Assembly: GCF_025791835.1 (NCBI RefSeq)
Contig: NZ_JAOXLP010000034.1
Location: 1 to 29,264, forward strand
Length of the DNA stretch: 29,264 bases
Direction: 5' to 3'
Origin: Roseomonas xinghualingensis
GTDB taxonomy: Bacteria > Pseudomonadota > Alphaproteobacteria > Acetobacterales > Acetobacteraceae
Within the stretch, counting starts at the first letter, position 1. Every line of letters begins with the position of its first letter. Shown here piece after piece: positions 6,556-21,015 of the stretch. A program made the position numbers and the translations under genes. Below the pieces are notes generated by a model. The model did not search any database. It saw only the letters and a program-made list of their open reading frames with translations, and was not told where the DNA came from.

Positions 6556-7568
6556 GCGTCTACGCTGCCCATGGCGTCGAGCCGCTCCAGCCGCCGCCTT
6601 GCCGCCACGGCCTCGCTTATCAGCGTGTCGATGATCGTCTCCATCGGTTCCACCGCCCGCGTGAAGGCGGCGGCGGGTCCGCAGGAGAGCATGCCCCGCT
6701 CCACCTCGCCGTCGCGATAGGCATGGTCGCGCGACTTCGTGCCGCCGATCAGGTCGGAAAAGGCCGCGTAATCCCGCGCGCCCGCCGTCTCGCGCCGCAG
6801 CACCTCGCGCGATGTCTCGTTCTCCAGCACCCGCCAGGAGCCCATGGGATGCGCACCCGAGAAGGTAAGGAGCGTGGAATCCTGCTCCGCCGCGACGATC
6901 CGCTCCTTATAGGCCGGATGCGCCCAGACCTCCTCCGCTGCCAGCAGGCGCGACCCGAGCACCACCCCCTCGGCCCCGGAAGCCAGCGCCGCCAGGATGC
7001 CATCTCCCGTGCCGATGCCGCCGCCGATCACCAGCGGCACGGAAAGCTGCCGCGCCGCCATCGGCGCCACCACCATGGAGCCGAGCACGGCGGCGCCGGG
7101 ATGTCCGCCCGCCTCAACCCCGATGATGCAGATGGCATCCGCCCCGGCTCGCTCGGCATTGAAGGCATGGCGCAGCAGCGGGCATTTGTGGATGGCGATG
7201 CCGCCCGCCGCATGAATGCGGTGGATCAGGTCCCCCGGCGCCCGCCCCACGGTCTCGAAATGCCGGACCCCCGCGCGCAGAGACAGATCCAGCCATTCAT
7301 CCAGCTTGAGATTATGGCCCTCCACCTTCGAGACATTGAGGTTCACGCCGAAGGGCAGCCCCTCCGTCAGCTCACGGCAGCGCACCAGCTCCCGCGCGAA
7401 GGCGCCGGTCTCGGGGAAGGAGCGCGGGGTGAGGAAGGCCATGCCGCCCGCCCGCACCACGGCGGCGACGTAATTCGCGTCCGAAAGCCACATCAGCCCG
7501 CCCGCGAGGATGGGGTGGCGGATGCCGAACAGCTCCGTGATCCGCGTGCGGAAAACCGGGGGGTGCAT
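6552..7568 (-). CDS. Nitronate monooxygenase-like FMN protein (NPD family)
   Basis: A 338-residue TIM-barrel flavoprotein of the 2-nitropropane dioxygenase / nitronate monooxygenase family. FMN-binding features are the N-terminal PILAGGLMWLSD and the phosphate-binding GGGIGTGDGILAALASGAEG beginning at 182. The likely catalytic His is H156 in VEAGGHPG. Members either oxidise alkyl nitronates or, in related branches, reduce enoyl substrates. The gene sits inside a CoA-ester operon (four-base overlap with the ligase, 11-base gap after the SDR). A role on an unsaturated acyl-CoA, or in detoxifying a by-product, is therefore as plausible as nitronate oxidation. Ribosome site AGAGGAAC lies just ahead of the ATG. 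Confidence 0.85.
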   Translation of the reverse strand: MHPPVFRTRITELFGIRHPILAGGLMWLSDANYVAAVVRAGGMAFLTPRSFPETGAFARELVRCRELTEGLPFGVNLNVSKVEGHNLKLDEWLDLSLRAGVRHFETVGRAPGDLIHRIHAAGGIAIHKCPLLRHAFNAERAGADAICIIGVEAGGHPGAAVLGSMVVAPMAARQLSVPLVIGGGIGTGDGILAALASGAEGVVLGSRLLAAEEVWAHPAYKERIVAAEQDSTLLTFSGAHPMGSWRVLENETSREVLRRETAGARDYAAFSDLIGGTKSRDHAYRDGEVERGMLSCGPAAAFTRAVEPMETIIDTLISEAVAARRRLERLDAMGSVDA

Positions 7569-7579
7569 GGCCGTTCCTC

Positions 7580-8395
7580 TCAGGGCATCGCGTAGCCGCC
7601 GCTGGCTCCGACATGCTGCCCCGTGATGAAGGCCGCGCGGTCGGAAGCCAGGAAGGCGACGACGCCGCTGACATCCTCGGGGCGCGAGAGGCGCCCAAGG
7701 CCCTTGGCGGAAGGATAGGCGTTCAGCATCTTCGCCAGGCGCTCGTTGTTCTCCGGCGTTGCGTCGGCGCTCGTTGCCTGCCCCGGCGCGATGCCCTCAT
7801 GCGAAACGGCGCCGAGCACCACCACATTGGCCGTCACCCGGTCCCGCCCATGCTCCTTCGCCAGCGCCTTGGTCAGCCCGATGATCGCAGCCTTGGCGCC
7901 GGAATAGGCGGCCAGCCGCGCCTCGCCGATCCGCCCGGCCTCGGAAGCGATGGAGATGATGCGGCCCCATTTCTGCGACACCATGTCGGGCAGAACGGCG
8001 CGGCAGCAATACATGGTGCCATAGACGTTCAGCTCGACCGTGCTGTGCATTTCGCTATCGGGCGTCTCGATGAAGGTCGGTGGCATCCCGCCCTTCGCGC
8101 GGCGCTCCGGCGTGACGCCCGCATTGTTCACGAGAATGCCAATCGGCCCAAAGGCCTCCCTTCCCCTAGCCACCAGCGCCTGCACGGAATCTGCCCTGGT
8201 GATGTCGCCAGGCGAGGCCTCCGCCTCGCCCCCGGCGTCGCGGATCTCCTTCGCCACCGCCTCGGCACGCTCAGCGAAGAGATCGTTGACGATCACCTTC
8301 ACGCCCTCCGCCGCCAGCTCCTTGCAGATGGCGCGCCCAACGCCCTGGCCGCCGCCGGTGACGAGCGCCACGCGGCCCTTCAGGTTCAGTTCCAT
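7580..8395 (-). CDS. SDR-family NAD(P)-dependent oxidoreductase
   Basis: A 271-residue classical short-chain dehydrogenase. The cofactor motif is TGGGQGVG (13-20) with an acidic residue after beta-2 (NDLF, D38), which favours NAD(H). NNAG is at 90-93, the catalytic Ser is in SIASEAG (148-151) and YSGAK supplies Tyr164 and Lys168. Between NNAG and the active site it carries a modest insertion (PERRAKGGMPPTFIE). Position after the crotonase and before the NMO gene suggests oxidation of a 3-hydroxyacyl-CoA made by hydration of an enoyl-CoA; this is inference from context. Ribosome site GGGAA precedes the ATG at 8395. Confidence 0.88.
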   Translation of the reverse strand: MELNLKGRVALVTGGGQGVGRAICKELAAEGVKVIVNDLFAERAEAVAKEIRDAGGEAEASPGDITRADSVQALVARGREAFGPIGILVNNAGVTPERRAKGGMPPTFIETPDSEMHSTVELNVYGTMYCCRAVLPDMVSQKWGRIISIASEAGRIGEARLAAYSGAKAAIIGLTKALAKEHGRDRVTANVVVLGAVSHEGIAPGQATSADATPENNERLAKMLNAYPSAKGLGRLSRPEDVSGVVAFLASDRAAFITGQHVGASGGYAMP

Positions 8396-8404
8396 GATAT
8401 TCCC

Positions 8405-9199
8405 TCAGCGCCCGACATAGACGGGCTTGCGCTTCTCGACGAAGGCGCGGAATCCCTCGCGCCGATCCTCGCTGTCCGTCAGCATGCCGGCGGCATAGCG
8501 TTCGAACTCGAAGCCAGCATCGATGCCGCCCTGCATTCCCGCATTGACCGCGCGCTTGGCGAAAGCCACCGCTAGGGGTGGCATCTCCGCGATCTTTCGT
8601 GCGGTCTCCATCGCGGCCTCCAGCACGGAGCCCTCGACCACCTTGCTCACCAGCCCAATCGCCAGCGCTTTCTGCGCTGTCATGTGCTCGGCGGTGAACA
8701 TCAACTCCTTGGCCATGCTCGCGCCCACAACGCGCGGCAGGGTCTGCGTGCCGCCCGCGCCAGGGATGGCGCCCAGCCGCACCTCGGGCAGGCCCAGCTT
8801 CGCGTGGGCGGCCGCGTAGCGGATGTCCGCGGTCAGCGCCAACTCCATCCCGCCGCCCAGCGCCACGCCGTTGATCGCGGCGATCAGGGGACGCTCGAAC
8901 TCCTGCATGCCGCGGATCAGCTGGTGCGTAGCCTTCTGTGTCATAAAGTATTCCGGCCCGGTACGACGCAGATCCGCCCGTTCCTTGATGTCGGCGCCCG
9001 CGCAGAATGCCCTTTCCCCGGCGCCGGTCAGGATGACGCAGCGTAGTCCCACATCCTCCTTCGCGAGCCGGAAGAAGGCCGTCGCCAGATCCTCTTTCAT
9101 CGTGCCGCCGATGGAGTTCATTCGATCCGGCCGGTTCAGCGTGACGACCGCCACGCCATCACCCGACTCATAGATCAGCGTTCCAAGTTCCTCGCGCAT
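8405..9199 (-). CDS. Enoyl-CoA hydratase/isomerase (crotonase family)
   Basis: A 264-residue crotonase-fold protein, starting MREELGTLIYESGDGVAVVT. The CoA/oxyanion segment AFCAGADIKE is at about 65-73, and both hydratase glutamates are present: E119 in GVALGGGMELAL and E139 in GLPEVRLGAIPGAGGTQ. A true enoyl-CoA hydratase reaction is therefore possible. I chose the ATG at 9199 because AGGGA lies six bases upstream. The ATG at 9205 touches that ribosome site, and longer readings run into the thiolase gene in another frame without family similarity. It lies 11 bases after the thiolase-like gene. Confidence 0.9.
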   Translation of the reverse strand: MREELGTLIYESGDGVAVVTLNRPDRMNSIGGTMKEDLATAFFRLAKEDVGLRCVILTGAGERAFCAGADIKERADLRRTGPEYFMTQKATHQLIRGMQEFERPLIAAINGVALGGGMELALTADIRYAAAHAKLGLPEVRLGAIPGAGGTQTLPRVVGASMAKELMFTAEHMTAQKALAIGLVSKVVEGSVLEAAMETARKIAEMPPLAVAFAKRAVNAGMQGGIDAGFEFERYAAGMLTDSEDRREGFRAFVEKRKPVYVGR

Positions 9200-9210
9200 C
9201 GGCATTCCCT

Positions 9211-10359
9211 TCAGTCCCGCTGCAGCACGTGGCCGACCGCCACCGAGCCCAGCCCGATCATATGCGCCAGGGCCGTGCGCGCGCCCGGATGCTGCCGTCC
9301 CTCGGCCTCGCCGCGGAGCTGCCGCACGATCTCGGCAACCTGCCCCGCGCCCGTGGGGCCGATTGGATGTCCCATGCCGAGCAGCCCGCCCGAGGGGTTC
9401 ACCGCGCAACCGCCACCCCCGATGTCCCACTTCCCTTCGCGGACCTGCTGCGCGCCCTCGCCCAGCGGGCAGAGGCCGAGTGCCTCTGCATAGACGATCT
9501 CCTCGATGGTGAAGGCGTCGTGCAGCTCGATGATGTCGAGGTCTCGCATCTCAACGCCCGCCGCATCGAGTGCCGCGGTACCGGATCGCTGCACCATTTC
9601 CACCAGGCTCCACCCCTCATCTGCCACCGCATGCTCGGAGGATGAGACGGAGGACAGCACACGGATCGCTCGCCCGCGGTCCAGCCCGTGCTTCCGGATG
9701 GCGTCCTCGCTCGCGACGATCACCGCCGCAGCACCCTCGCCGCGTGGGGTGCATTGCAGGGAGGTGAGGTCACCCGCCACCTTGTTGGAGTTCAGCACCT
9801 GTTCCAGCGTGCGCGGTTTGCGGAACTGGGCATAGGGGTTGCGCGCAGCGTTGCCGTGGTTCTTCACGGCCACCCGCGCCATGTCCTCCGGCGTCAGCCC
9901 ATATCTATCCCGCCAGGCGCGCGCCATCAGCGCGAATTTTACAGCAGGGATCTCGGCTGCCGGCGTCAGCCGGGGGATGCCATCCTTGTGCGCGGCGCGC
10001 TGCGCTGAGCCGAACTTGTCCACGCCCAGCGCCAGCGCGATTTCGTGCTGGCCGCTGGCCACCATCATGCAGGCCATGCGGAAGGCACTGGAGCCGGAGG
10101 CGGAGGCATTCTCCACCTGCATCACCTCCAGCCCCGTCGAGCCGATATGGCGCAGCATCACGCGCCCGGCCGCCATGCCGATGGCCCCCGTGCCAATGGC
10201 CGCCATGGTCACGTCGGGCCATTGCAGGCCGGCATCGGCCAGCGCCTGACGCAGGGCCGTCAGCCCAAGCGTCACATAGGGCGTGTCCGTCGGGAACTGA
10301 TAGGAATGCATCCCTATTCCCACGACGCGCACCGGGCGCATCGAAGCCAGCCCGCTCAT
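9211..10359 (-). CDS. Thiolase-fold (SCP2/Ltp2-type) protein lacking the nucleophilic Cys
   Basis: A 382-residue thiolase-superfamily protein of the lipid-transfer/SCP2-thiolase branch. The fold is clear: VENASASGSSAF (82-93), the HDAF motif in IELHDAFTIEE, and NPSGGLLGMGHPIGPTGAGQ near the C-terminus. The residue that in thiolases is the acyl-accepting Cys (usually xxACASGS) is Ser86, encoded TCC. The second cysteine position near the end (GLGSVAVGHVL) is also not Cys. The two active-site histidine motifs are kept. It is coupled to a DUF35 gene by an ATGA overlap, as in the aldolase-type Ltp2 systems that cleave steroid side chains. I infer either retro-aldol cleavage of a 3-hydroxyacyl-CoA or another cysteine-independent reaction. 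Classic thiolysis looks unlikely. Confidence 0.88.
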   Translation of the reverse strand: MSGLASMRPVRVVGIGMHSYQFPTDTPYVTLGLTALRQALADAGLQWPDVTMAAIGTGAIGMAAGRVMLRHIGSTGLEVMQVENASASGSSAFRMACMMVASGQHEIALALGVDKFGSAQRAAHKDGIPRLTPAAEIPAVKFALMARAWRDRYGLTPEDMARVAVKNHGNAARNPYAQFRKPRTLEQVLNSNKVAGDLTSLQCTPRGEGAAAVIVASEDAIRKHGLDRGRAIRVLSSVSSSEHAVADEGWSLVEMVQRSGTAALDAAGVEMRDLDIIELHDAFTIEEIVYAEALGLCPLGEGAQQVREGKWDIGGGGCAVNPSGGLLGMGHPIGPTGAGQVAEIVRQLRGEAEGRQHPGARTALAHMIGLGSVAVGHVLQRD

Positions 10360-10760
10360 GCCGCGCCCTCCGTTACCCGAAAGCGGCAGCCCAGCACCGC
10401 GCCGCCCTCGCGCTCCTCCGGCACCAGAACCGCCTGCACCTTCGTCCCCGGCGCCGGTTCCTCCGTGCCCTCGATGATGCCGTCCAGCACGATCCCCTCT
10501 TCCAGCCGCAGCCGCGCTACCAGCAGCGGGACCTGCATTCCCGGCGAAAGCGGCTGATGGACGGTCACGCAGGTGAGCACCTCGGCGCGCCCGCTCAGCT
10601 CGGCCTGTTCGGCCGCCTCGGTGGGCGTGCCGGTAGCGCCGATGCCATAGGGCGTGCGCGGGAAGGCGAGGTCACCAGTTGCGGGATCGCGCAGCGCCAG
10701 GAGCACGGCATCCTCGCCGGTGCCGGATCGCGCGTAGAGGGTTGGTTCGCGAAGCTCCAA
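10356..10760 (-). CDS. DUF35/OB-fold acyl-CoA-binding partner protein, TTG start
   Basis: A 134-residue protein starting at a TTG (10760) with GGAG eight bases upstream; that GGAG lies in the last codons of the preceding Bug gene. The sequence fits the OB-fold part of DUF35: GRAEVLTCVTVHQPLSP, PLLVARLRLEEGIVLDGIIE, PGTKVQAVLVPEE and GCRFRV. DUF35 proteins normally carry an N-terminal rubredoxin-like zinc ribbon with two CxxC pairs. Here the matching stretch (LLALRDPATGDLAFPRTPYG) has no cysteine, so the metal site is lost or was never present. It overlaps the thiolase-like gene by ATGA. DUF35 proteins are usual obligate partners of thiolase-fold aldolases and ketothiolases, so the two probably form one complex. 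Confidence 0.8.
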   Translation of the reverse strand: MELREPTLYARSGTGEDAVLLALRDPATGDLAFPRTPYGIGATGTPTEAAEQAELSGRAEVLTCVTVHQPLSPGMQVPLLVARLRLEEGIVLDGIIEGTEEPAPGTKVQAVLVPEEREGGAVLGCRFRVTEGAA

Positions 10761-10765
10761 GTCAC

Positions 10766-11737
10766 CTACTCCAGTCGAATGCCGGCACGGCGGATCACGT
10801 CGGCGGCTCGCTGTCGCTCCGACGCCAGATGGGAGGCGAAGTCCTGCGGCCCGGCCCAGTAGGACTGGCTGCCGAGATCCTTCAGCCGCGCCGAGAATAC
10901 GGGCCCGCGCACAGCGTCCCGCAGCGCGTCCGAAAGCCGCGCGAGCACCGGCCCAGGCAGACCCGCCGGCCCGACCAGGCCGAGCCAGGTGGTAACGACC
11001 ACCTCGGGCACCACATCCTTCAGCAGCGGCAGGTCCGGGAAATCCGCGAAGGGTTCGCTGCCTGTCTGGGCCAGCGCCCGCAGCACGCCGTTCCGCACAT
11101 GGGTCGTGGTGGTCGAGACGCTGTCGATCATGAAATCGACCTTGCCCGCGATCAGGTCCGTCACCGCCGGGCCGCTGCCGCGATACGGCACATGGGTGAT
11201 GTCCAGGCCGCCATAGGCCTTCAGCATCTCCCCCGCGATATGCATGGAACTGCCCACGCCTGCCGAGGCGTAGTTCATCTTCCCCGCCTGCGCCCGCGCG
11301 CCCTCCACCAGCGATCGCGCATCGCGGTGGGGCGAGGAAGCCGGCACAACCAGCAGCAGCGGGCTGCTCGTCGTCTGCCCGATTGCCGTGATGTCGCGCG
11401 CCGCGTCGAAGGCGAATTTTGGGTCCAGAACCGGGTTTGCAACGAGCTGCCCGGGACTGGCCAGCATCAGCGTGTAGCCATCGGGATCGGCTCGGACGAG
11501 CAGATCCGTGGCCACGTTGCCACCGCCGCCCGAGCGGTTCTCGACCACGATGGACTGTCCCAGCGCCTCTGATAGCAGGGGCTGCAGCAGCCGCGCCGCA
11601 ATGTCGGTGGCGCCGCCCGGCGCGAAACCAACCAGCAGCTTGATCGGGCGAGTGGGCCAGGTCTGGCTCCGCGCCAGTCGCGGCGCGAACGGCGCCAGCG
11701 CGGCCGCCGCCAGCAGGGAACGCCGGGAAGAGCTCAT
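10766..11737 (-). CDS. Bug/TctC-family periplasmic solute-binding protein (second in operon)
   Basis: A 323-residue tripartite-tricarboxylate-type (Bug) receptor. The N-terminus MSSSRRSLLAAAALAPFAPR is a Tat-like signal with twin Arg at 5-6 and cleavage after about residue 24. Family signatures: PIKLLVGFAPGGATDIAARL, VVENRSGGGGNVAT, DGYTLMLASPGQ, the ligand-loop region ITHVPYRGSGPAVTDLI and GKVDFMIDSV. It overlaps the preceding Bug gene by ATGA and abuts the DUF35 gene. Its closest relative in the window is the plus-strand Bug protein at 13620-14615, with which it shares long near-identical blocks. Bug proteins bind carboxylates, but the ligand cannot be read from sequence. Confidence 0.92.
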   Translation of the reverse strand: MSSSRRSLLAAAALAPFAPRLARSQTWPTRPIKLLVGFAPGGATDIAARLLQPLLSEALGQSIVVENRSGGGGNVATDLLVRADPDGYTLMLASPGQLVANPVLDPKFAFDAARDITAIGQTTSSPLLLVVPASSPHRDARSLVEGARAQAGKMNYASAGVGSSMHIAGEMLKAYGGLDITHVPYRGSGPAVTDLIAGKVDFMIDSVSTTTTHVRNGVLRALAQTGSEPFADFPDLPLLKDVVPEVVVTTWLGLVGPAGLPGPVLARLSDALRDAVRGPVFSARLKDLGSQSYWAGPQDFASHLASERQRAADVIRRAGIRLE

Positions 11738-12711
11738 TGCGGTCGCACCCCCGCGATCTCCACGCCCCGCGCGGCCCGTGCACGCTCCTCGGCGTAGAAC
11801 CGCTCGAACTCCTCTGGCCCGATATAGGCTGGCCCGTTGCCCACGCTGCGAAGCCGCGCCCCGACCTCCGGGTCTTCCAGTGTTGCGCGGGTGGCGGCAT
11901 CCAGCCGGCGCAGCAGGTGCTCCGGCAGCCCGGCCGGCGCGGCGATCGCCGTCCAGCTCTGCACCACCACGTCGGGATAGCGGTCCGAGAGCCGGGGCAG
12001 ATCAGGCTGGGCGATATCGGGCAGCGACCCGCCATTGGCGATCACGTGCACCTTGCCGGATTGCAGGTGCGGCAGCAGTGGCCCGCGGCTGTCGAAGACG
12101 AAGTCCACCTCGCCCGCCACCAGGGCGTTGATGGCGGCCGCGCTACCGCGGTAGGGCACATGGACCGCGCGCGCACCGATCGCGTTCAGGAAAAGCTCCG
12201 ACCCTACATGCATGGCGAAGCCGATGCCGGGCGAGCCGTAATTGGCGGCATCGCCCTTGCGCTTCAGATGCGCGATCAGCCCGTCCACATCCGTCACCCC
12301 GATCGCGCTCGGCACCGCCAGCAGGAAGCCGCCCGCGGTGATGCGGGAAACCAGCCTGATGTCCCTCACGGGATCGAAGGGCATGTCGCGGTAGATATAT
12401 GGGTTCAGCGTCATGATCCCGCCGGAGATGACCATGATGGTCTGCCCGTCCGGCGCCGCGCGGGCCAGGAACTCGGCCGCGATGTTGCCACCCGCGCCAG
12501 GCCTGTTGTCCACGACCACGGGCTGCCCAAGCCGCTGTGCCAGGCCGGGCTGCACGATGCGGGCGATCAGGTCGGTGATGCTGCCTGGAGAGGAACCGCA
12601 GACGGCCCGGATGGGCTGCGCTGGCTCGGCCTGGGCCGAGGCGCTCCTGGCACGGAACAGCAGCGGCGTGCCAGCGAGGGACGCCAGGGCCGCTCGGCGC
12701 GGGATGGGCAT
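11734..12711 (-). CDS. Bug/TctC-family periplasmic solute-binding protein (first in operon)
   Basis: A 325-residue Bug receptor and first gene of the nine-gene minus-strand operon. The signal peptide has twin Arg (MPIPRRAALASLAG) and a likely cleavage after ARSASAQA. Signatures: PIRAVCGSSPGSITDLIARI, VVVDNRPGAGGNIAAEFLAR, ARAVHVPYRGSAAAINALV and GEVDFVFDSRG. The usual FAPGG(A/P)TD ligand loop appears here as SSPGSITD, so the binding pocket may differ from that of its neighbour. A divergent TetR gene lies upstream, and the intergenic DNA carries a TTGACT-TACCAT promoter with a palindrome. A ribosome site GGAGGAAGG precedes the ATG. Confidence 0.92.
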   Translation of the reverse strand: MPIPRRAALASLAGTPLLFRARSASAQAEPAQPIRAVCGSSPGSITDLIARIVQPGLAQRLGQPVVVDNRPGAGGNIAAEFLARAAPDGQTIMVISGGIMTLNPYIYRDMPFDPVRDIRLVSRITAGGFLLAVPSAIGVTDVDGLIAHLKRKGDAANYGSPGIGFAMHVGSELFLNAIGARAVHVPYRGSAAAINALVAGEVDFVFDSRGPLLPHLQSGKVHVIANGGSLPDIAQPDLPRLSDRYPDVVVQSWTAIAAPAGLPEHLLRRLDAATRATLEDPEVGARLRSVGNGPAYIGPEEFERFYAEERARAARGVEIAGVRPQ

Positions 12712-12772
12712 GGACCTTCCTCCGTCAGTCCGCCGCGTTGGCCGCAGCTGGAGCCCAAGTTGTCTTGGGTGA

Positions 12773-12805
12773 CCTCATGGTATGCTAAGTGACTTTCAAG
12801 TCAAC
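12773..12805 (-). promoter_or_regulatory. Promoter and operator of the nine-gene operon
   Basis: On the minus strand TTGACT, a 16-base spacer and TACCAT form a sigma70-like promoter (about 12805 down to 12778). Overlapping the -35 is a perfect palindrome TGACTT-TC-AAGTCA at 12790-12803. The same arrangement recurs upstream of the acyl-CoA dehydrogenase and, less exactly, after tetR. For the divergent tetR, TATGCT at 12781-12786 could be a -10 element, which would place the palindrome over the tetR start of transcription. TetR-type autoregulation is the simple reading. Confidence 0.6.
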
Positions 12806-12880
12806 TGACATGAATGGCACCTCGCGCCGGCTTGCGCTCGTCGCCAGGGGCAGTCAGATGGCGGAAAGCGGGAAGGCGAG

Positions 12881-13537
12881 ATGAACCGGACGACAGTAGC
12901 CGTGAAGAAGCCAGCGCGCTGGGCGGATGCCGTTCCGGCCCGCGAGGCGCAGTTCGAAACGAAGCGGCGTGCCCTGGTGCGCGAGGCCGCCCGTGCCTTC
13001 GGCCGGCGCGGCTTCCACAACACCTCCCTCGAAGAGATCGCGGAGGCGCTGGGCGTCACCAAGCCGGCGCTGTACCGCTATGTCCGCACGAAGCACGAGA
13101 TTCTGCATGAAGCGAAGTCCATCGCCTTCGATTCCGGCGCAAAGGCTCGGGAGATGGCTTTCGCCGCCAGCGAAGACCCGATCGAGCGGCTCCGCCTCTA
13201 CATCATCCACTATATCGACCTGGTCACGAGCGAGCTCGGATCCTACGCCGTGCTGGCCGAGCCTGTGACTTCGCTTCCGCCGGAGTATGCCGATCCCATC
13301 CGCGCCCGCATGCGCGAGGCCGACCGTGCCCTGCGAGACATGGTGCAGTCCGCCATGGATGCGGGCTTCATCCCTGCGGGGGATCCCAAGCTGTCGGTCG
13401 CGTTCTTCATGGGCGCGATCAATCACATCGCCCGCTGGTACACGCCCGACGGGCCGCTGACGGGCCGCGAGATCGGGGAGATCTTTGCCGGCTTCGTCCT
13501 GAACGGGCTGCGCGGCCCTGGCCCGCAACCAACTTGA
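12881..13537 (+). CDS. TetR-family transcriptional regulator
   Basis: A 218-residue cytoplasmic DNA-binding protein. The N-terminal TetR helix-turn-helix is complete: REAARAFGRRGFHNTSLEEI, AEALGVTKPALYRYVRTKHE (about residues 34-73). The C-terminal ligand domain (LRLYIIHYIDLVTSELGSYA... MGAINHIARWY) resembles regulators of fatty-acid or acyl-CoA metabolism. About 20 extra basic residues precede the HTH. It is divergent from the nine-gene operon, and its stop codon (13535-13537) lies inside an operator-like sequence for the next gene. An acyl-CoA intermediate of the pathway is the natural candidate inducer, by analogy only. Confidence 0.9.
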   Translation: MNRTTVAVKKPARWADAVPAREAQFETKRRALVREAARAFGRRGFHNTSLEEIAEALGVTKPALYRYVRTKHEILHEAKSIAFDSGAKAREMAFAASEDPIERLRLYIIHYIDLVTSELGSYAVLAEPVTSLPPEYADPIRARMREADRALRDMVQSAMDAGFIPAGDPKLSVAFFMGAINHIARWYTPDGPLTGREIGEIFAGFVLNGLRGPGPQPT

Positions 13538-13562
13538 CTCTGAAGTAACTTCAAGAACCAAT
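13534..13562 (+). promoter_or_regulatory. Operator/promoter between tetR and the third Bug gene
   Basis: TTGACT (13534-13539) overlaps the tetR stop codon. ACCAAT lies 17 bases further on, at 13557-13562. TGACTCTGAAGTAA at 13535-13548 matches the palindrome of the nine-gene operon at 11 of 14 positions. TGAAGT-A-ACTTCA (13541-13553) is itself a perfect inverted repeat. It probably allows the Bug gene its own transcript under the same regulator. Confidence 0.5.
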
Positions 13563-13619
13563 GGGTCACCGCTCAACGCGGACGGCGGCGCCTTGTGCCC
13601 GCCGGAAGGAGAACCCGTC

Positions 13620-14615
13620 ATGCGTTGGACCCGCCGGGGCGTGCTTGCCCTGGGTGCGGCGGCCCCCCTGGCCGCATTCTCCCCACCTTTATCCGCTCGG
13701 CCTGAAGCGCCAGCCGGCTATCCCGCCAAGCCCATCAGGCTGCTGATCGGCTTCGCTCCCGGTGGAGCGACCGATATCGCCGCACGCCTGGCGGCGCCCA
13801 TCATGTCGGAACTGCTCGGCCAGCAGGTTGTGCTCGAGAACCGCTCCGGCGCCGGCGGGAACGTGGCCACCGAACTCACGGCACGTGCCCCCGCCGATGG
13901 CTATACGCTGCTGATGCTGACGCCGGGACAGATCGTCACCAACCCGCTGATGATGCGCGTGCCCTATGACCCGGAACGCGACATCAGCATCATCGCCCGC
14001 ATGACGGCCGGCCAACTCGTCATGGTCGTGCCCAAGGATTCCCCGTTCCGGGACGTGCGCCAGCTGATCGACACGGCGCGGGCCCGCTCCCGCAGCAATC
14101 CGCTCTCCTACGGCACGCCCGGCCCCGGCACCTCGCAGCACATCGTCATGGAGATGCTGAAGAAGGAGGGCGGCTTCGAGGCGACGCATGTTCCCTATCG
14201 CGGCAGCGGCCCGGCCGTGACCGACCTCATCGGTGGCAAAATCGACTTCATGATCGACAGCGTCAGCCCCACCCTGCCGCATGTGCGCGGCGGCTCACTC
14301 CGTGCCATCGCGGTGAGCGGTTCCGAGCCCCATCCCGATTTCCCAGGTGCCGTCACGCTGAACAGTGTGGTGCCAGGCGTGATCATGACCACCTGGGTCG
14401 GCCTGGGCGGCCCGCCCGACCTGCCTCCGGCCATGGTGGCCTATCTGACAGACGTGATGCGCCGGACCGTGAACCATCCAGGCTTCGCAGAGCGCATCAG
14501 GGGGCTCGGTGGCCAGTCCGCTTGGCTGAGTCCCGCCGACTTCACCGCCGCGCTTGCGGCGGAGCGGAAGAGCATTGGCGAGGTCATTCGCAGTGCCGGC
14601 ATCCGGATGGAATAG
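13620..14615 (+). CDS. Bug/TctC-family periplasmic solute-binding protein
   Basis: A 331-residue Bug receptor. I start at the ATG at 13620 because GGAAGGAG lies eight bases upstream and this gives MRWTRRGVLALGAAAPLAAF, a Tat-type signal. A GTG 27 bases earlier would only add residues ahead of the signal. Signatures: PIRLLIGFAPGGATDIAARL, VVLENRSGAGGNVATEL, DGYTLLMLTPGQIVTNPL, ATHVPYRGSGPAVTDLI and GKIDFMIDSVSPTLPHV. It is clearly paralogous to the Bug protein at 10766-11737, and both likely bind similar ligands. The gene follows tetR on the same strand and ends facing a convergent Bug pair, with a hairpin between. Confidence 0.92.
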   Translation: MRWTRRGVLALGAAAPLAAFSPPLSARPEAPAGYPAKPIRLLIGFAPGGATDIAARLAAPIMSELLGQQVVLENRSGAGGNVATELTARAPADGYTLLMLTPGQIVTNPLMMRVPYDPERDISIIARMTAGQLVMVVPKDSPFRDVRQLIDTARARSRSNPLSYGTPGPGTSQHIVMEMLKKEGGFEATHVPYRGSGPAVTDLIGGKIDFMIDSVSPTLPHVRGGSLRAIAVSGSEPHPDFPGAVTLNSVVPGVIMTTWVGLGGPPDLPPAMVAYLTDVMRRTVNHPGFAERIRGLGGQSAWLSPADFTAALAAERKSIGEVIRSAGIRME

Positions 14616-14625
14616 GCGAGGGGTC

Positions 14626-14650
14626 GGGCGATCTCCCCCGGAGAACGCCC
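14626..14650. terminator. Hairpin between convergent Bug genes
   Basis: GGGCG-A-TCTCC, loop CCC, GGAGA-A-CGCCC: two five-base stems separated by one A-A mismatch, 11 bases past the plus-strand stop and just before the minus-strand stop. There is no T tract, so it is a candidate bidirectional terminator or 3' stabiliser, not a canonical one. Confidence 0.45.
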
Positions 14651-14659
14651 GGCCGCTTC

Positions 14660-15634
14660 TCAGATCGGCTGCGCGCCGGAGCGCCGGACGATCTCGCCCC
14701 AACGGATCATCTCTGCTTCGACAAAGCGGCCGAAGGCCGCACCGCTCAGCTCGTCCATCGGGCGGCTGCCGTTGCCTTCGCCATAGGCGCGCATCTCGGG
14801 GTCGCGGATCACCGCGCCTGCTGCTTCCGTCAGGCGGGCTACGATCTCGGGTGGCGCGCCGGCCGGCATGAACAGTCCGGACCAGGTCGAGGAAATGGCG
14901 TCCGGAAGCCCGGCCTCACCCATTGTCGGCAGGTCACGCAGTGCTGGGATCCGCTGGCGGGCCGTGACGGCGAGCCCCCGCATCCGCCCGTTCGCTAGAT
15001 GCTCTCGCGTGGTAGCGACATAGTCGAACATCACGTCCACATTGCCGGCCATCAGGTCCGTCAGCGCGGCGGCAGCGCCGGTATAGGAGACATGCGTCGT
15101 CTTGATCCCCGCGATCGATTCGAACAGGACGGCCGTCAGATGCGTCGAGGTGCCCACTCCGGCATGGGCGAGGTTCACACGCCCGGGATTCGCCTTCGCA
15201 TGAGCGACGAACTCCTCCACCGTGCGATAGGGGCGGGAGGGATTGGCGACCAGGACATTTGAGGATTCGAACCATCCCTGAATCGGCGTGAAGCTCCGCA
15301 CGGGGTGGTAGCCGAGCCGCCGGTACATCGCGGGCGCGCCGGATAGCGCGGCATTGGTGCCGTACAGGATCGTGTAGCCATCCGGTGCTGCGCGCGCCGC
15401 GTATTCCGTCCCCAGCGTGCCGCCGGCACCCGGCCGGTTCTCGATAATCACGGACTGGCCGAGCTGCTGACTGAGCTTGCGCGAGGCAAGGCGCGACGTG
15501 GCATCCGTCACCCCCGCGGGGGTGAAGGGCACAATCCATGTGATGGGCCGGCTGGGATAGCTGCCCTGGGCCGCCGCGCCGCGCGTGCATAGCGCCGCGA
15601 GCGGGAGCGCAAGGCCGCGTCGGGTGATCCGCAT
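14660..15634 (-). CDS. Bug/TctC-family periplasmic solute-binding protein (tandem copy B)
   Basis: A 324-residue Bug receptor starting at the ATG at 15634 (MRITRRGLALPLAALCTRGA), with GGGAGG about five bases upstream. Signal peptide cleavage is likely near RGAAAQG. Signatures: PITWIVPFTPAGVTDATSRL, VIIENRPGAGGTLGTEYAAR, TTHVSYTGAAAALTDLM and GNVDVMFDYV. It lies 11 bases after its upstream neighbour, with which it shares the MRITRR start, the PFTPAGxTD loop, the RPYRTVEE(F/L) block and the IVRRSGAQP end. The two are tandem duplicates. Position 3 of the PYRGSG block has diverged (SYTGAA), which may indicate a change in specificity. Confidence 0.92.
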   Translation of the reverse strand: MRITRRGLALPLAALCTRGAAAQGSYPSRPITWIVPFTPAGVTDATSRLASRKLSQQLGQSVIIENRPGAGGTLGTEYAARAAPDGYTILYGTNAALSGAPAMYRRLGYHPVRSFTPIQGWFESSNVLVANPSRPYRTVEEFVAHAKANPGRVNLAHAGVGTSTHLTAVLFESIAGIKTTHVSYTGAAAALTDLMAGNVDVMFDYVATTREHLANGRMRGLAVTARQRIPALRDLPTMGEAGLPDAISSTWSGLFMPAGAPPEIVARLTEAAGAVIRDPEMRAYGEGNGSRPMDELSGAAFGRFVEAEMIRWGEIVRRSGAQPI

Positions 15635-15645
15635 GTGACCCTCCC

Positions 15646-16620
15646 TCAACTCGGCTGGGCGCCGGAGCGGCGGACGATGTCGGCCCAGCGCGGGATTTCC
15701 GCTTCGATGAAACGGGCGAAGCTGTCCCGGCTGAGTTCTGCCATGGGGCGGCTGCCGTTGCTCTCCGCGTTATGGCGGATCTCGGGATCCTGGATCGTGG
15801 CGGCGCATTCCGCTGCGAGCTTCTCCACCACATCGGCCGGCGCGCCCGCGGGGAGGAGGATGCCGGACCAGGCTGCGGAAACGGCGTCTGGCATGCCCAT
15901 CTCGACCATTGTCGGTACGTCCGGCAACACGGGGATCCGCTCACGCGCGGTCACGACCAGTGGGCGCAGCCGGCCTCCCTGGATGTGTTCCCGCGTGGCG
16001 ACGGCATAGTCGAACATGATGTCCGTGGTGCCGGCGATGAGGTCCGTAAGCGCGGGGCCGCTGCCGGGATAGGGCACATGGGTCATCTCGATCCCCGCGA
16101 CCGTCTGGAACAGCACGGTCGCCAGATGCGTGCCGGTGCCGACGCCGGAGGTGGCGAAGTTGACCTTTCCGGGATTCGCCTTCGCATAGGCGATCAGTTC
16201 TTCCACCGTGCGATAGGGGCGGGAGGGGTGGACGACGACCACGCTCGGCGTCTCGAACAAGCCCTGGATCGGGACGAAGCTGCGGATCGGGTCATAGGGC
16301 AGGCGCCGGAAGAGGGATGGCGCGGTGCAGAGCGTGCCCTGGGTGCCATACATCATCGTGTAGCCGTCGGGCGTCGCGCGGGCGCCTACCTCCGTGCCCA
16401 GCGTGCCGCCGGCGCCGGGCCGGTTGTCAATGAGGACGGTCTGGCCAAGCCGCGCGCCAAGCTTCCGCGCGAAGAGGCGCGAGTTGATGTCTGTGATGCC
16501 GGCCGGAGTGAACGGCACGATCCAGTTGATAGGCCGGCTCGGATAGGTGCTCTGCGCCATTGCGCCGCGTGCGTGCAGCGCAGCCAGGCCCAGGCCCATG
16601 GCGCGTCGGGTGATCCTCAT
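15646..16620 (-). CDS. Bug/TctC-family periplasmic solute-binding protein (tandem copy A)
   Basis: A 324-residue Bug receptor, first of a two-gene unit. N-terminus MRITRRAMGLGLAALHARGA with cleavage around GAMAQ; ribosome site GGGAGG is six bases upstream. Signatures: PINWIVPFTPAGITDINSRL, VLIDNRPGAGGTLGTEVGAR, DGYTMMYGTQGTLCTAPSLF, MTHVPYPGSGPALTDLI and DIMFDYAVATREHIQGG. It keeps the standard VPYxGSGPALTDL block that its tandem partner has lost. Between it and the upstream IclR gene is a 119-base gap holding an inverted repeat and a leader hairpin, so it probably has its own regulated promoter. Confidence 0.92.
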   Translation of the reverse strand: MRITRRAMGLGLAALHARGAMAQSTYPSRPINWIVPFTPAGITDINSRLFARKLGARLGQTVLIDNRPGAGGTLGTEVGARATPDGYTMMYGTQGTLCTAPSLFRRLPYDPIRSFVPIQGLFETPSVVVVHPSRPYRTVEELIAYAKANPGKVNFATSGVGTGTHLATVLFQTVAGIEMTHVPYPGSGPALTDLIAGTTDIMFDYAVATREHIQGGRLRPLVVTARERIPVLPDVPTMVEMGMPDAVSAAWSGILLPAGAPADVVEKLAAECAATIQDPEIRHNAESNGSRPMAELSRDSFARFIEAEIPRWADIVRRSGAQPS

Positions 16621-16635
16621 CTTTTCCTCCCGCTT

Positions 16636-16683
16636 CGGCGTTTTCGCCGTTACCTCCGAGTCATCGGAGTGACCTTTAGGATA
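16636..16683 (-). promoter_or_regulatory. Leader hairpin and inverted-repeat operator ahead of the Bug pair
   Basis: CGGCG-TTTT-CGCCG (16636-16649) can form a small hairpin in the leader. Just upstream, GTTACCTCCGA and TCGGAGTGACC form an imperfect inverted repeat (8 of 11) around GTCA, with TCCGA/TCGGA exact. Parts resemble the TetR-type palindrome (TTACCTCCGAGTCA matches 10 of 14), but no TACCAT-like -10 is at the right distance. It may be a site for the adjacent IclR protein. Confidence 0.4.
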
Positions 16684-16739
16684 CCGAAGGCATGCGCGGA
16701 AGCAACTCGGCCGTGGTGCGACCGCACCGGGACCTGCGT

Positions 16740-17513
16740 TCAGGCTTGCGCCGAAGGGATCAGCCGTTCTTTAGGGGGGCTGCCAAAGAGATGCGGGCGG
16801 ACCTCATCAAGGGCCGCCAAGTACCGCTCGCGGCTGGTTTCCAACCGGCTCGTCGGGCCGGCGAGGGAGACTGCCAGCGGCTCGCCACCGGCCATGCCGG
16901 CGATGGCGATTGCTGCCACACCTTCGCCGGCCTCGTCCGCCACCCAGGCCCAGCCGCGCGCGCGAACCTCCTCGATGCCCCGCTCCAGCACCTCAGGGTC
17001 GGTGATCGTATTGGGACCGAATGCGCGCAGCGGCCGCGCCTGGATGATGCGGCGCATCTCCGCGGCCGGGAGCAGCGAGAGCAACGCCTTCCCCATCGCC
17101 GAGGCATGCCAGCTCAGCCGGTCCCCAGGCTTCAGCATGTAACGCAGAACATGGCTGCCCTCCTGAAAGGCGACCACCTGCACCCGCGTGCCGTCCGGCC
17201 GCCCGCAGACCGCTGTCTCGCCTGTCCGCTCGGACAGCGTCGCGATAGCCTCGGCGGAAAAGGTGGCGATCGGGTCCTGTTCGGCCCATTGCCTGGCCAG
17301 ATCCAGCATCCGCCGTGTGGGATAGAAGCGGCGGGACCGAAGGGTGCGCAGCAGGTAGCCTGCCTCATGCAGCGTGTGCAGCAGGTCGGAGGTGCTGCTC
17401 TCGGGCAGGCCGATGAGCCTGGCGACCTCGGCATTGGACAGTTCGCGCTGCTCACGGGCGAAGGTCTCGAACACGGCTAGGGTGCGCAGTGTCGCCGGAA
17501 CGGTGGTCGGCAT
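16740..17513 (-). CDS. IclR-family transcriptional regulator
   Basis: A 257-residue regulator. The N-terminal winged helix-turn-helix (LRTLAVFETFA, LSNAEVARLIGLPESSTSDL, LHTLHEAGYL; about 9-53) and a C-terminal IclR effector domain (LSWHASAMGKALLSLLP, GWAWVADEAGEGVAAIAI) are both present. IclR proteins usually control catabolic genes and sense aromatic or short-chain acids. The gene is divergent from the acyl-CoA dehydrogenase and lies directly upstream of the tandem Bug pair on the same strand, so either could be its target. The start at 17513 gives MPTTVPATLRTL. Confidence 0.9.
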   Translation of the reverse strand: MPTTVPATLRTLAVFETFAREQRELSNAEVARLIGLPESSTSDLLHTLHEAGYLLRTLRSRRFYPTRRMLDLARQWAEQDPIATFSAEAIATLSERTGETAVCGRPDGTRVQVVAFQEGSHVLRYMLKPGDRLSWHASAMGKALLSLLPAAEMRRIIQARPLRAFGPNTITDPEVLERGIEEVRARGWAWVADEAGEGVAAIAIAGMAGGEPLAVSLAGPTSRLETSRERYLAALDEVRPHLFGSPPKERLIPSAQA

Positions 17514-17776
17514 CGGGATTCCTGAAAGGGCAGGGAGAGAAGCAGCGGCTGCCCTGATACGGCGTCAGGAGGCCGGCTGCACCCTTTCCGCCAGGCATCG
17601 AACGATCGAGCATGTGACCCCAAAGACATGATGTTGACTTCAAAGTCACCTGAGCTACCATTCCTTCACAGAATGAGAGCCACGGCACCAATGCCGGGCG
17701 GCAGGAAGGAACGGGCCATTGCTTCGCGTGCATCTATGCCCATCGCGGCCTGGCCATTGGCTGCGTGGGGACCGAC
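17514..17776. other. Divergent intergenic region, IclR / acyl-CoA dehydrogenase
   Basis: 263 bases between divergent starts. It holds the promoter/operator at 17615-17661, described separately. The roughly 110 bases from there to the ACAD start give an unusually long leader, in which I see no gene and no clear hairpin. Confidence 0.6.
17615..17661 (+). promoter_or_regulatory. Promoter and double operator of the acyl-CoA dehydrogenase operon
   Basis: TTGACT (17634-17639), 16 bases, TACCAT (17656-17661) is the same spacing and the same hexamers as at the nine-gene operon. The perfect palindrome TGACTT-CA-AAGTCA is at 17635-17648. A weaker copy, TGACCCCAAAGACA at 17615-17628, matches 11 of 14 positions and sits exactly 20 bases upstream. 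The operator overlaps the -35, as expected for repression. Confidence 0.6.
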
Positions 17777-18925
17777 ATGGCCGTTGATCTGACCCCGGAG
17801 CAGGAACTGCTCCGCGATAACATCCGCCGTTTCATGGAGCGTTCCGTGGTGCCGGTGATCAACCGGCACGAGGCGGCCAAGACCTTCCCCTTCGAGTTGC
17901 TTGGGGAACTGAGGGAATTTGGCTATCTCGGCGGCCGGTTGCCGGAGGAGGATGGCGGCTTCGGGCTCGACTTCGTCACCTGGGGCATGTTGCTGGAGCA
18001 GACGGGCTACTACTGGATGTCGCTCCGTACCCTAGTGAACATCACAAATGGTGCGATCAACCGGCTGCACGCCTATGGCACTCCCGAGCAGAAGGAGCGC
18101 TTTCTCAAGCCTTTGCTGGAGAACACGCGCCGCGCCTGCTTCGGATTGACAGAGCCTGACACGGGGTCGAACGCAGCCGGCGTGCAGATGCGCGCCGAGA
18201 GGCGCGGCGATACCTATGTCCTCAATGGCCGCAAGATGTGGATCACCAACGGAACGAATGCGGATTTCGCCATCGTCATCGCGCGTACCTTCAGCCCAGA
18301 TTGCGACGGCAAGCTCTCAGCCTTCATCGTGGAGCGCGATGCCGCGAACTATGATGTCCGCGCGCTGGACACGATGGTGCTGCGCTGCACCGGCACAGCG
18401 GAACTGGGCTTCAGCGATGTGGTGATCCCGAGGGAGAACCTGCTGGGTACCGAGGGCGGCGCCTTCGCCAATGTGCTGAAGGGGCTAAACGCCGCGCGGG
18501 TGAACATCGCCATGGGGGCTGTTGGCGCAGCCCAGGCGGCGCTGGATCTTTCCGTGGAATATGCCAGGACCAGGAAGCAGTTCGGCAAGCCCATCGGCAG
18601 CTTCCAGCTGATCCAGAAGCACATCGTGGACATGACCATCCGAACCGAGGCGGCGCGCGCGCTGAGCTACAACGCCGCCATCGCCCTCGACCGTGGGCGT
18701 GACGCGCGGACGGAATGCTCCATCGCCAAGCTCTACGCCACCGAGGCGGCCCATGAGGTGGCGAACATGGCGATGCAGGTTCATGGCGGCCTCGGATACT
18801 CCACCGACTATCCGATCGAGCGCATCTTCCGCGACACGCGTGGCGGCATGATTCCGGAGGGCACGACCGAAATCCAGACCCTCATCGCAGGCCGTGAAAT
18901 CCTCGGGCTCTCGGCGCTGACATGA
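17777..18925 (+). CDS. Acyl-CoA dehydrogenase
   Basis: A 382-residue FAD-dependent acyl-CoA dehydrogenase that would introduce an alpha-beta double bond into an acyl-CoA, passing electrons to ETF. Signatures: CFGLTEPDTGSNAAG (121-135) and WITNG (155-159) for FAD/substrate binding, RKQFGKPIGSFQLIQ and VHGGLGYSTDYPIERIFRD. The catalytic Glu is probably E361 in IPEGTTEIQ, the position used in short-chain and glutaryl-type enzymes. I choose the ATG at 17777 with GGGGA just upstream; a GTG 12 bases earlier is possible. It is coupled to the next gene by ATGA. The product would feed the crotonase of the nine-gene operon, which shares the same promoter module. Confidence 0.93.
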   Translation: MAVDLTPEQELLRDNIRRFMERSVVPVINRHEAAKTFPFELLGELREFGYLGGRLPEEDGGFGLDFVTWGMLLEQTGYYWMSLRTLVNITNGAINRLHAYGTPEQKERFLKPLLENTRRACFGLTEPDTGSNAAGVQMRAERRGDTYVLNGRKMWITNGTNADFAIVIARTFSPDCDGKLSAFIVERDAANYDVRALDTMVLRCTGTAELGFSDVVIPRENLLGTEGGAFANVLKGLNAARVNIAMGAVGAAQAALDLSVEYARTRKQFGKPIGSFQLIQKHIVDMTIRTEAARALSYNAAIALDRGRDARTECSIAKLYATEAAHEVANMAMQVHGGLGYSTDYPIERIFRDTRGGMIPEGTTEIQTLIAGREILGLSALT

Positions 18926-21015
18926 AGGGCTTCTCCGATCTCACCCATCTCTTTGACCCGCGCTCGGTGGTGCTGGTCGGCGCCTCGGAGCGGGCGGCGA
19001 GCGTCGGCGGCCGGACACTGGCCAATATCCTGGACCATTCGGCCTTCCAGGGGGTGCTGCACCTGGTGAACGCCACCCGCGCGGAGATCCGCGGCATTCC
19101 CTGCCATAAGCGGGTGGCGGACCTGCCCTCCACTCCGGATCTCGCCGTTATCGCCGTTCCGGCCATCGGCGTCATGGAGGCGCTGCGGGACTGCGCGGCG
19201 CTGGGTGTGAAGTTCTGCGTCATCCTCACCTCCGGCTTCGGGGAGACAGGGGATGAGGGCCGCGCCTCCGAGGCCGGGATGAAGGCGCTGGCGGAATCAA
19301 GTGGTATGCGCCTCTACGGGCCGAACTGCCCGGGCATTACCAACATCAACAAGCGTCTCGGCTTCACCTTCTCGCCCGCCTTCGTGAACGACCTGCGGCC
19401 TGGCCCGATCGGCCTTGCCACCCAGGGCGGCGGGCTGGGGCGCAACCTGCTGCAATCCATGGAGCGCGGTACGGGCTTCGCGCTCTGGTGCTCCACCGGC
19501 AACGAGGTGGACCTGCAGGTGGCAGACTTCATCCACTACATGGCAGGCGCGCCGGATGTGAAGGTGATCGGCACCATTCTGGAGGGGATCAAGGACGGAC
19601 CCCGCTTTCTCGCCGCCGCACGCCGCGCGGCGGAGACGGGCAAGCCCATCGTGGCGCTCAAGATTGGGCGCTCCGAATACGGAATCAAGGCGGCAGCCTC
19701 GCACACCGCTTCGCTCACGGGATCGGCCGAGGTGAACAGCGCGGCGTTCCGCCAGCTCGGCATCATCGAGGTGGATGATATCGACGAGCTGGTGGATGTC
19801 GCCTCCCTCCTTGCGCGCGGCACGCCGCGCGGCGGGGAGAGGATTGCGGTGTTCGGCTCCTCCGGCGGTGCCTGCGCGCTGGCGGCGGATATGGTTGGGC
19901 AGGCCGGGCTGGTGCTGGCCGATCTTGCGCCAGAGACGACCGCGGTATTGGCCGCGAAGCTCCCTGCCTATGCCGCGCTCGGCAATCCCGTGGACACGAC
20001 TACCGTGACGCTCACCAATCCTGGCGTCATCGAGGAGACGCTGGCGGCGGTGGCGAATGACCCCTCCGTGTCGCTGGTGATGATGCCCATGCCCCTCGAC
20101 TACGGACCGGTTTCGCATACCGTCGCGCAGCGCATGGTGGCGGCACAGGCGCTCACCTCCGTGCCGCTCGTGCCGGTGTGGATGAGCGAGCGCACCGGCG
20201 CCGCCTATCGCTGCTTCGCCGAAGCAGGGATGGTGCCGATGCGGAGCCTGCGCAATGCGGCGAAAGCCTTTCGGCGCTACACCGACCACGGGGCTTGGCA
20301 GCCCGGGTCGATGCCAAAGGGGCTGGGTGCTGGCCTCTCCGCCGCGCCTGTCCGCAGCCTGTCCGAGGCGGACGGCAAGGCCCTGCTGCGGGAAGCCGGA
20401 CTGACGGTGCCGCAAGGTGTTCCGGCCCGGTCTGCGGCGGAGGCCCGCAGTGTAGCGGCCAGCCTGGGTTTCCCGGTCGCGGTGAAGATCGCCAGTGCCG
20501 ATATTCTGCACAAGTCCGATATCGGCGGCGTGGTGCTCGGCCTTCAGGACGTGGCAAGCGTGGAAGCAGCCTTCAAGGCGGTGACGCAGGCCGCCGCACG
20601 CCACCACCCCGCAGCGCGGATCGACGGCGCCCTGGTGGAGCGGATGGCGCCATCGGGTGGGGTGGAGCTTCTGCTCTCCATCTCGCGTGATCCGGTTCTC
20701 GGGCTGGTGATGACCTGCGGCCTGGGCGGCATCCATGTGGAGTTGCTGCGCGATGTGGCGCACCGCCTACTTCCCGTGGATGAGACAGAGGCTGGCCGGA
20801 TGCTGCGGGAACTGCGCGGCTTCCCGCTGCTCACCGGCCTGCGGGGCGCCGCGCCTTGCGATATCGACGCACTGGCGCGGGCCATGCTGGCACTCTCGGA
20901 CCTTGCCGAGGGACGGCCAGAGGAGATCGAGGAAATCGAGATCAACCCCATCCGCGTCGGTGCCGTCGGCGAGGGGGCCTGGGCGCTCGACGCGGTGGTG
21001 AAGATGCGTGCCTGA
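18922..21015 (+). CDS. NDP-forming acyl-CoA synthetase (ACD type), fused subunits
   Basis: A 697-residue single-chain acyl-CoA synthetase of the ADP-forming class, related to succinyl-CoA synthetase. Domain order: CoA-binding Rossmann domain (about 1-135; FDPRSVVLVGASER), succinyl-CoA-ligase-like domains (about 150-450) with the phosphohistidine probably H261 in AAASHTASLTGSAEV, and a C-terminal ATP-grasp domain (about 470-697; FPVAVKIASADILHKSDIGG, VERMAPSGGVELLLSISRDP, EIEINPIRV). The reaction is reversible: acid + CoA + ATP to acyl-CoA + ADP + Pi. It could activate the substrate cheaply or harvest ATP from a product thioester. It overlaps the dehydrogenase by four bases, so the two are co-translated. 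Confidence 0.92.
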   Translation: MKGFSDLTHLFDPRSVVLVGASERAASVGGRTLANILDHSAFQGVLHLVNATRAEIRGIPCHKRVADLPSTPDLAVIAVPAIGVMEALRDCAALGVKFCVILTSGFGETGDEGRASEAGMKALAESSGMRLYGPNCPGITNINKRLGFTFSPAFVNDLRPGPIGLATQGGGLGRNLLQSMERGTGFALWCSTGNEVDLQVADFIHYMAGAPDVKVIGTILEGIKDGPRFLAAARRAAETGKPIVALKIGRSEYGIKAAASHTASLTGSAEVNSAAFRQLGIIEVDDIDELVDVASLLARGTPRGGERIAVFGSSGGACALAADMVGQAGLVLADLAPETTAVLAAKLPAYAALGNPVDTTTVTLTNPGVIEETLAAVANDPSVSLVMMPMPLDYGPVSHTVAQRMVAAQALTSVPLVPVWMSERTGAAYRCFAEAGMVPMRSLRNAAKAFRRYTDHGAWQPGSMPKGLGAGLSAAPVRSLSEADGKALLREAGLTVPQGVPARSAAEARSVAASLGFPVAVKIASADILHKSDIGGVVLGLQDVASVEAAFKAVTQAAARHHPAARIDGALVERMAPSGGVELLLSISRDPVLGLVMTCGLGGIHVELLRDVAHRLLPVDETEAGRMLRELRGFPLLTGLRGAAPCDIDALARAMLALSDLAEGRPEEIEEIEINPIRVGAVGEGAWALDAVVKMRA

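Follow-up and report, generated by a model that had tools for sequence, protein, structure and literature searches.

A TetR-type repressor whose gene has three palindromic sites close by, within a cluster for coenzyme A (CoA)-dependent catabolism, is an arrangement known from KstR2 of mycobacteria: in the accessible part of the regulon's description, KstR2 reads a 14-bp palindrome with a 2-bp centre, has three sites near its own gene and controls CoA-dependent catabolic genes (PMC3068626), and the available portion of a further paper gives HIP-CoA as its effector (PMC8700777). When a divergent gene is closer than 200 bp to a TetR gene, the TetR protein usually represses it, as in all five tested cases covered by the accessible text of PMC3511530. 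Here we describe a locus with the KstR2 arrangement and a different motif and gene set, found in a 29,264-nucleotide stretch of Roseomonas xinghualingensis DNA (contig NZ_JAOXLP010000034.1 of assembly GCF_025791835.1; hereafter the window). As judged from the sequence, its tetR gene very probably governs a local regulon of uptake and breakdown genes for a carboxylic acid. We consider it likely that the TetR protein binds three 36-bp modules, at the promoters of a nine-gene operon (site A), an acyl-CoA dehydrogenase/ligase operon (site B) and the binding-protein gene Bug2 (site C), represses through tandem sites and is released by an acyl-CoA. The features on which the argument turns are as follows.

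12881–13537, plus strand: tetR, the proposed regulator gene, encoding TetR_N and TetR_C_24 domains
12769–12804, minus strand: site A, a 36-bp module read directly in the sequence, before the nine-gene operon and the divergent tetR; first palindrome 12789–12804, second, degenerate palindrome 12769–12784, −35 hexamer 12799–12804, −10 hexamer 12777–12782
17634–17669, plus strand: site B, a 36-bp module between iclR and the acyl-CoA dehydrogenase gene; first palindrome 17634–17649, second, degenerate palindrome 17654–17669, −35 hexamer 17634–17639, −10 hexamer 17656–17661
13534–13569, plus strand: site C, a degenerate module between tetR and Bug2; first palindrome 13534–13549 (two mismatches), second palindrome 13554–13569, good −10 absent
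17614–17629, plus strand: GTGACCCCAAAGACAT, perhaps a third copy, weak, 20 bp ahead of site B
4016–12711, minus strand: nine-gene operon under site A
17777–21015, plus strand: genes for acyl-CoA dehydrogenase and a succinyl-CoA-ligase-like acyl-CoA ligase (18922–21015), the site B target
13620–14615, plus strand: Bug2, a TctC-type binding protein gene and proposed site C target; start chosen by eye, with a ribosome-binding-site-like GGAGAA before the ATG
14660–17513, minus strand: iclR (16740–17513), Bug4 (15646–16620) and Bug3 (14660–15649), a possible second target of site B; iclR encodes the rival regulator

Site A reads TTGACTTGAAAGTCAC followed by TACCAT on the minus strand (12804–12777), site B reads TTGACTTCAAAGTCAC followed by TACCAT on the plus strand (17634–17661), and the 14-mer TGACTTnnAAGTCA is a perfect palindrome in both. 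An earlier note on this DNA had described TTGACT, 16 bases and TACCAT as a promoter/operator unit repeated at three promoters. At site B the unit reads exactly as claimed, the first 16 bases of A and B differ at a single position, as also claimed, and at site A the unit is present, although its coordinates (12778–12805) were one base too high. The unit is larger than had been thought, forming a 36-bp tandem module, and site C is a degenerate copy of it; the sequence assigned to C (13534–13562) exists, but the string given as common to the sites holds only in part, as site B has ACCT rather than ACTT. A scan of positions 12600–18000 for sigma-70-like promoters found A and B only (shuffled sequences: mean 0.6, standard deviation 0.8) and did not pick up site C. 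The GTRAC of the weak copy upstream of site B is kept in five of six relatives. Between site A and the start of tetR, CGGCTTGC (12828–12835) is invariant in six aligned loci despite variable surroundings, and is possibly part of the tetR promoter.

The motif is rare. In the 4,875,494 bases (4.88 Mb) of the genome, the exact palindrome TGACTTnnAAGTCA occurs at two places, A and B. The 16-mer TTGACTTnnAAGTCAC is found without mismatch only at A (12789–12804, minus) and B (17634–17649, plus); with up to two mismatches it occurs at four places, namely A, B, C (13534) and one position on another contig, and with up to three it gives 66 rows on both strands against 69 for the reversed control, a count not above control. 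The composite pattern TTGACT-N4-AGT-N-AC-N7-ACCA-N4-KTCAC (36 bp), searched with up to three mismatches, had 17 matches in seven of eight genomes, all at the locus, compared with one match for the reversed control; as the pattern derives from these sites, the perfect fit of the window's three is by construction, whereas the lack of other matches does not follow from it. We rejected a genome-wide regulon, as the 16-mer at one mismatch gave three off-locus matches in nine genomes (G201, G202 and G205) against six for the reversed control, and the composite pattern gave none in eight genomes. Scatter of the motif across the genome, named in the earlier note as grounds against a local regulon, was not seen: good matches are confined to the locus, in this genome and in its relatives. 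TTGACT is near a common −35 hexamer, and a chance likeness of promoter hexamers could be supposed for that reason; the uniqueness of the motif in the genome and its conservation in relatives speak against this, the genome scans led us to reject it, and we regard its probability as negligible.

Close TetR orthologs (86–92% identity) were found in six other Roseomonas-type genomes: Roseomonas rosea, Roseomonas sp. KE0001, R. populi, Pararoseomonas baculiformis, Pseudoroseomonas ludipueritiae and a metagenome-assembled genome (MAG; G204). KE0001 and R. rosea each occur twice (G016/G200 and L035/L040) and were counted once. Site A is kept in all seven genomes, the R. rosea copy lying on another contig (L094). 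Site B is kept in six of six genomes that have iclR next to the acyl-CoA dehydrogenase gene (the MAG stretch has neither gene), and site C in five of five that have Bug2 after tetR (the stretches of P. baculiformis and the MAG have no Bug2 there); around the conserved sites the flanks vary. The C sites of R. rosea and R. populi were missed by the 16-mer scan at three mismatches and found by alignment and by the composite search. In P. ludipueritiae (L042 9539–10202), two Bug4-like pieces lie between tetR and Bug2, and site C has moved along with Bug2.

An ungapped alignment of 18 copies (seven A, six B and five C) delimits the module. TTGACT (columns 1–6) and AGT (11–13) are kept in 17–18 copies per column, AC (15–16) in all 18, and ACCA (24–27) and TCAC (33–36) in 16–18; conservation drops outside columns 1–36, except in two columns immediately 5′ of column 1, which do not vary within a set. 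All 18 copies keep two half-site pairs in alignment, spaced by 20 bp, and the centre of the second, degenerate palindrome (columns 21–36) lies 20 bp past that of the first, over the −10. Of the five site C copies, those of KE0001 and R. populi have GACC-N4-GGTC as the second palindrome and the remaining three deviate from it by one base; the T at column 23 is absent from all five and the T at column 28 from four, with ACCA and GTC mostly kept. Because TCAC lies beyond the −10, where promoter hexamers do not account for it, and because site C keeps ACCA and GTC although its −10 is gone, we read columns 21–36 as a second operator, the left half of which also serves A and B as the −10. We regard it as quite possible, if just short of probable, that the operator combines two TetR sites spaced by exactly two helical turns and that the −10 is itself a half-operator that has diverged: in A and B, the second palindrome would have had its left half changed to TACC, which serves as the −10, and C would be nearer to the palindrome, its −10 lost. 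If true, promoter strength and repressor cooperativity would trade off within one 36-bp unit at three promoters of a transporter-plus-catabolism island.

Several observations weigh against our reading of the locus. Site B of KE0001 (TAGCAT, no TTCAC) departs in both the −10 and the +20 parts and was missed by the composite search at three mismatches; site C combines the absence of a good −10 with a weak first palindrome; and the Alloalcanivorax locus described below has no composite match, its palindromes lacking the +20 element. The last point, together with the degeneracy of the second palindrome and the fact that columns 23–28 can be a −10 at A and B, would fit TetR binding the first palindrome alone as one dimer, with columns 24–36 being promoter and start-region sequence and no second operator. 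We hold this to be rather unlikely, since TCAC past the −10 is so widely kept, ACCA and GTC persist at C, and the aligned copies keep the 20-bp spacing exactly. The identity of the binding protein also has a rival, left unweighed in the earlier note: IclR (16740–17513), divergent from the acyl-CoA dehydrogenase gene, could bind the modules while TetR regulates something else. IclR adjoins site B, and the family sample fits it equally well: among 200 family genomes, an 18-base pattern of the motif occurs in three, a close TetR in the same three and the motif in none of the other 197, but IclR orthologs occur in these same three genomes and the sample therefore cannot separate the two proteins. 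One further genome (G092), whose TetR is 43% identical, has no motif, which also tells against TetR. Two other genomes do separate them. The MAG has TetR and site A, and its best IclR proteins are 33% identical, with no ortholog among them, although the MAG may be incomplete, which weakens its case; Alloalcanivorax mobilis (G205) has a TetR of 40% identity and two palindromes closely resembling the motif, and its best IclR is 29% identical and again no ortholog. Because both genomes keep TetR and the motif without an IclR ortholog, TetR rather than the neighbouring IclR is the likely binder. The conserved palindromes adjoin tetR, site A doing so in all seven close genomes, and binding by IclR seems improbable to us. 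The earlier proposal that this TetR protein is the regulator is thus strengthened by the position of the sites, by the two genomes that lack an ortholog of the rival and by the 197 family genomes that have no close TetR ortholog and no motif either.

The TetR protein belongs to the family by its domain scores (TetR_N 51.4 bits, cut-off 24; TetR_C_24 87.1 bits, cut-off 26.4). A predicted model, with eight sequences behind it and a mean predicted local distance difference test (pLDDT) score of 76.6, is all-helical and matches TetR structures, the nearest solved ones being PfmR, AibR and KstR2 (E value for KstR2, 1.6e-13). None of the NCBIfam TetR equivalogs (FasR, AcrR, MftR, Bacillus FadR and others) scored above its cut-off, the best being FasR (46 bits against 330), with FadR at 22.1 against 200; the likeness to the acyl-CoA-responsive TetR group (AibR, KstR2 and Bacillus FadR) is one of sequence and fold neighbourhood alone.

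From these data we infer binding by TetR, repression, two dimers and an acyl-CoA effector. Each module would offer two sites 20 bp, or two helical turns, apart on the same face of the DNA, the −35 being covered by a strong palindrome (TTGACTYnnRAGTCAC at A and B) and the −10 by a degenerate one of the ACC-N4-nGTCAC type. RNA polymerase would be barred by a single dimer or by two, and an acyl-CoA intermediate of the pathway would bind TetR and lift repression. As A and B each stand between divergent genes, they may also act on tetR itself and on iclR-Bug4-Bug3. Release by an acyl-CoA is suggested by the gene content and by analogy with PfmR, AibR and KstR2; these are distant relatives, with about 28–30% identity, a distance that counts against this choice of effector. 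TetR might instead activate, or act in both ways, if the weak −10 (TACCAT) needs its help. In favour of activation, the −10 matches only four of six consensus positions, and FasR, the best NCBIfam match even if far below its cut-off, is a TetR-family activator by its NCBIfam name. The sites, however, overlie the −35 and −10 themselves, so that a bound protein should block polymerase, and the gap between tetR and its divergent neighbour, 169 bp, is within the 200 bp for which PMC3511530, in its accessible part, reports repression of the neighbour in five of five tested cases; this supports repression here, and we give activation little credence.

Outside the Roseomonas-type genomes, close versions of the palindrome were found in Alloalcanivorax, a gammaproteobacterium in which genes for a TRAP transporter, short-chain dehydrogenase/reductase (SDR), OB-fold protein, thiolase and hydratase (31–64% identity) run up to TetR and the ligase (51% identity) is divergent. 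Its palindromes, TTGACTCTAAAGTTAA (3501) and TTGACTTTAGAGTTGA (3314 of L044), stand between ligase and transporter; a matrix built from 13 Roseomonas-type A and B sites gives them scores of 22.1 and 16.9, the highest score among 30 simulated sequences of equal length being 13.7. A pattern drawn from the two sites occurs nowhere else in 46 genomes of the family, and its absence from the 45 other genomes searched suggests that the cluster is mobile. The TRAP transporter (DctP, DctQ and DctM; L044 3593–6617) takes the place of the TctC proteins, the enzymes being otherwise related. At an E value of 1e-35, the TetR search passed 15 of 398 phylum genomes, own included. The loci of 11 of the other 14 were examined, and no convincing TGACTT-type palindrome was seen near TetR in these 11; in three, TACTYnnRAGTA stands 66–142 bp upstream of the TetR match (L088 10507, L089 10468 and L090 10398; TetR_C_24 regulators). 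The core ACTYnnRAGT occurs six times in 12 loci other than Alloalcanivorax, three times within 500 bp upstream. As a lead only, DarR-like TACTYnnRAGTA is perhaps the common operator core of this TetR branch. Best-scoring matches of L083 (14.1 against 13.8), L087 (14.5 against 14.3) and L104 (15.1, equal), each compared with its own 30 simulations, were taken as chance; those of L083 and L087 lie about 8 kb from TetR. Searches with the thiolase, which picked out 4 of 385 class genomes and 4 of 398 phylum genomes (own included), turned up clusters of a related but distinct kind at six loci in five genomes; in 20-kb stretches of these six loci, tblastn found no TetR relative and the matrix scan no convincing site.

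The gene set looks like one for uptake and CoA-dependent breakdown of some carboxylic acid. From 12711, the nine-gene operon runs through two TctC genes (11734–12711 and 10766–11737) and an OB-fold protein gene (10356 to about 10772) to genes for a thiolase, an enoyl-CoA hydratase, an SDR, a nitronate-monooxygenase-family protein, an AMP-dependent acyl-CoA ligase and an MBL-fold protein; the earlier count of nine holds if the second TctC gene is read and not an overlapping open reading frame (ORF) of 559 codons. The SDR, hydratase, thiolase, OB-fold and nitronate-monooxygenase-family genes (7580–8395, 10356–10359 and neighbours) are, as a set, what we take to be reminiscent of the steroid ring genes under KstR2, a likeness of the set only. 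The acyl-CoA dehydrogenase ORF opens at 17765 with a likely ATG at 17777, and tblastn matches start at ORF residue 5. Five TctC-type (Bug) genes lie within 5 kb (11734–16620 region: 11734–12711, 10766–11737, 13620–14615, 14660–15649 and 15646–16620), and the scan of window genes showed no membrane partner for them. Near the contig end (28438–28974) there is a partial DDE transposase.

An uncharacterized catabolic island with TctC-type proteins, two kinds of acyl-CoA ligase and beta-oxidation-type enzymes thus gains a regulator and a defined operator, both predicted. The regulator's inducer could point to the island's substrate, the operator could serve to recognize the island in other genomes, and the composite operator offers a small example in which to test how one stretch of DNA is shared between TetR dimers and RNA polymerase. 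No account of this TetR system was recognized in the literature searched, as judged by titles and abstract openings among the matches listed, subscription journals lying largely outside the coverage; the matches listed for the motif letters were unrelated by title.

Compared with KstR2, the locus differs in its motif (TGACTTnnAAGTCA here, AnCAAGnnCTTGnT in the accessible part of PMC3068626) and host group, and the tandem 36-bp module and TctC transporter proteins belong to the present locus. AibR and PfmR share the fold at 26–30% identity, and AibR has been solved with isovaleryl-CoA and with operator DNA; the likeness is by protein alone. DarR, a relative by sequence and fold searches, shares the ACT-N4-AGT core (ATACT-N4-AGTAT) and binds as a dimer of dimers (PMC10636190, accessible text); reading of this core by the present TetR would agree with the DarR operator and with TACTYnnRAGTA at 3 of the 11 distant relatives, although these are leads. 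According to the same text, DarR binds cyclic nucleotides, its outer bases are ATACT rather than TGACT and its palindromes overlap within 20 bp, whereas the centres here are 20 bp apart. PA3973 of Pseudomonas aeruginosa, in the available portion of PMC9736018, is likewise a TetR-type regulator of an acyl-CoA dehydrogenase gene with two close 14-bp (pseudo)palindromes around the −10, but its motif is SAAGRNMTGAACG and it has more than 300 genomic binding sites, in contrast to one locus here. CprB and QacR are TetR-family proteins that bind cooperatively as two dimers (PMC4150764, in part); the CprB dimers bind a single 22-bp sequence from opposite sides, whereas those proposed here would share one face, at two sites spaced by 20 bp.

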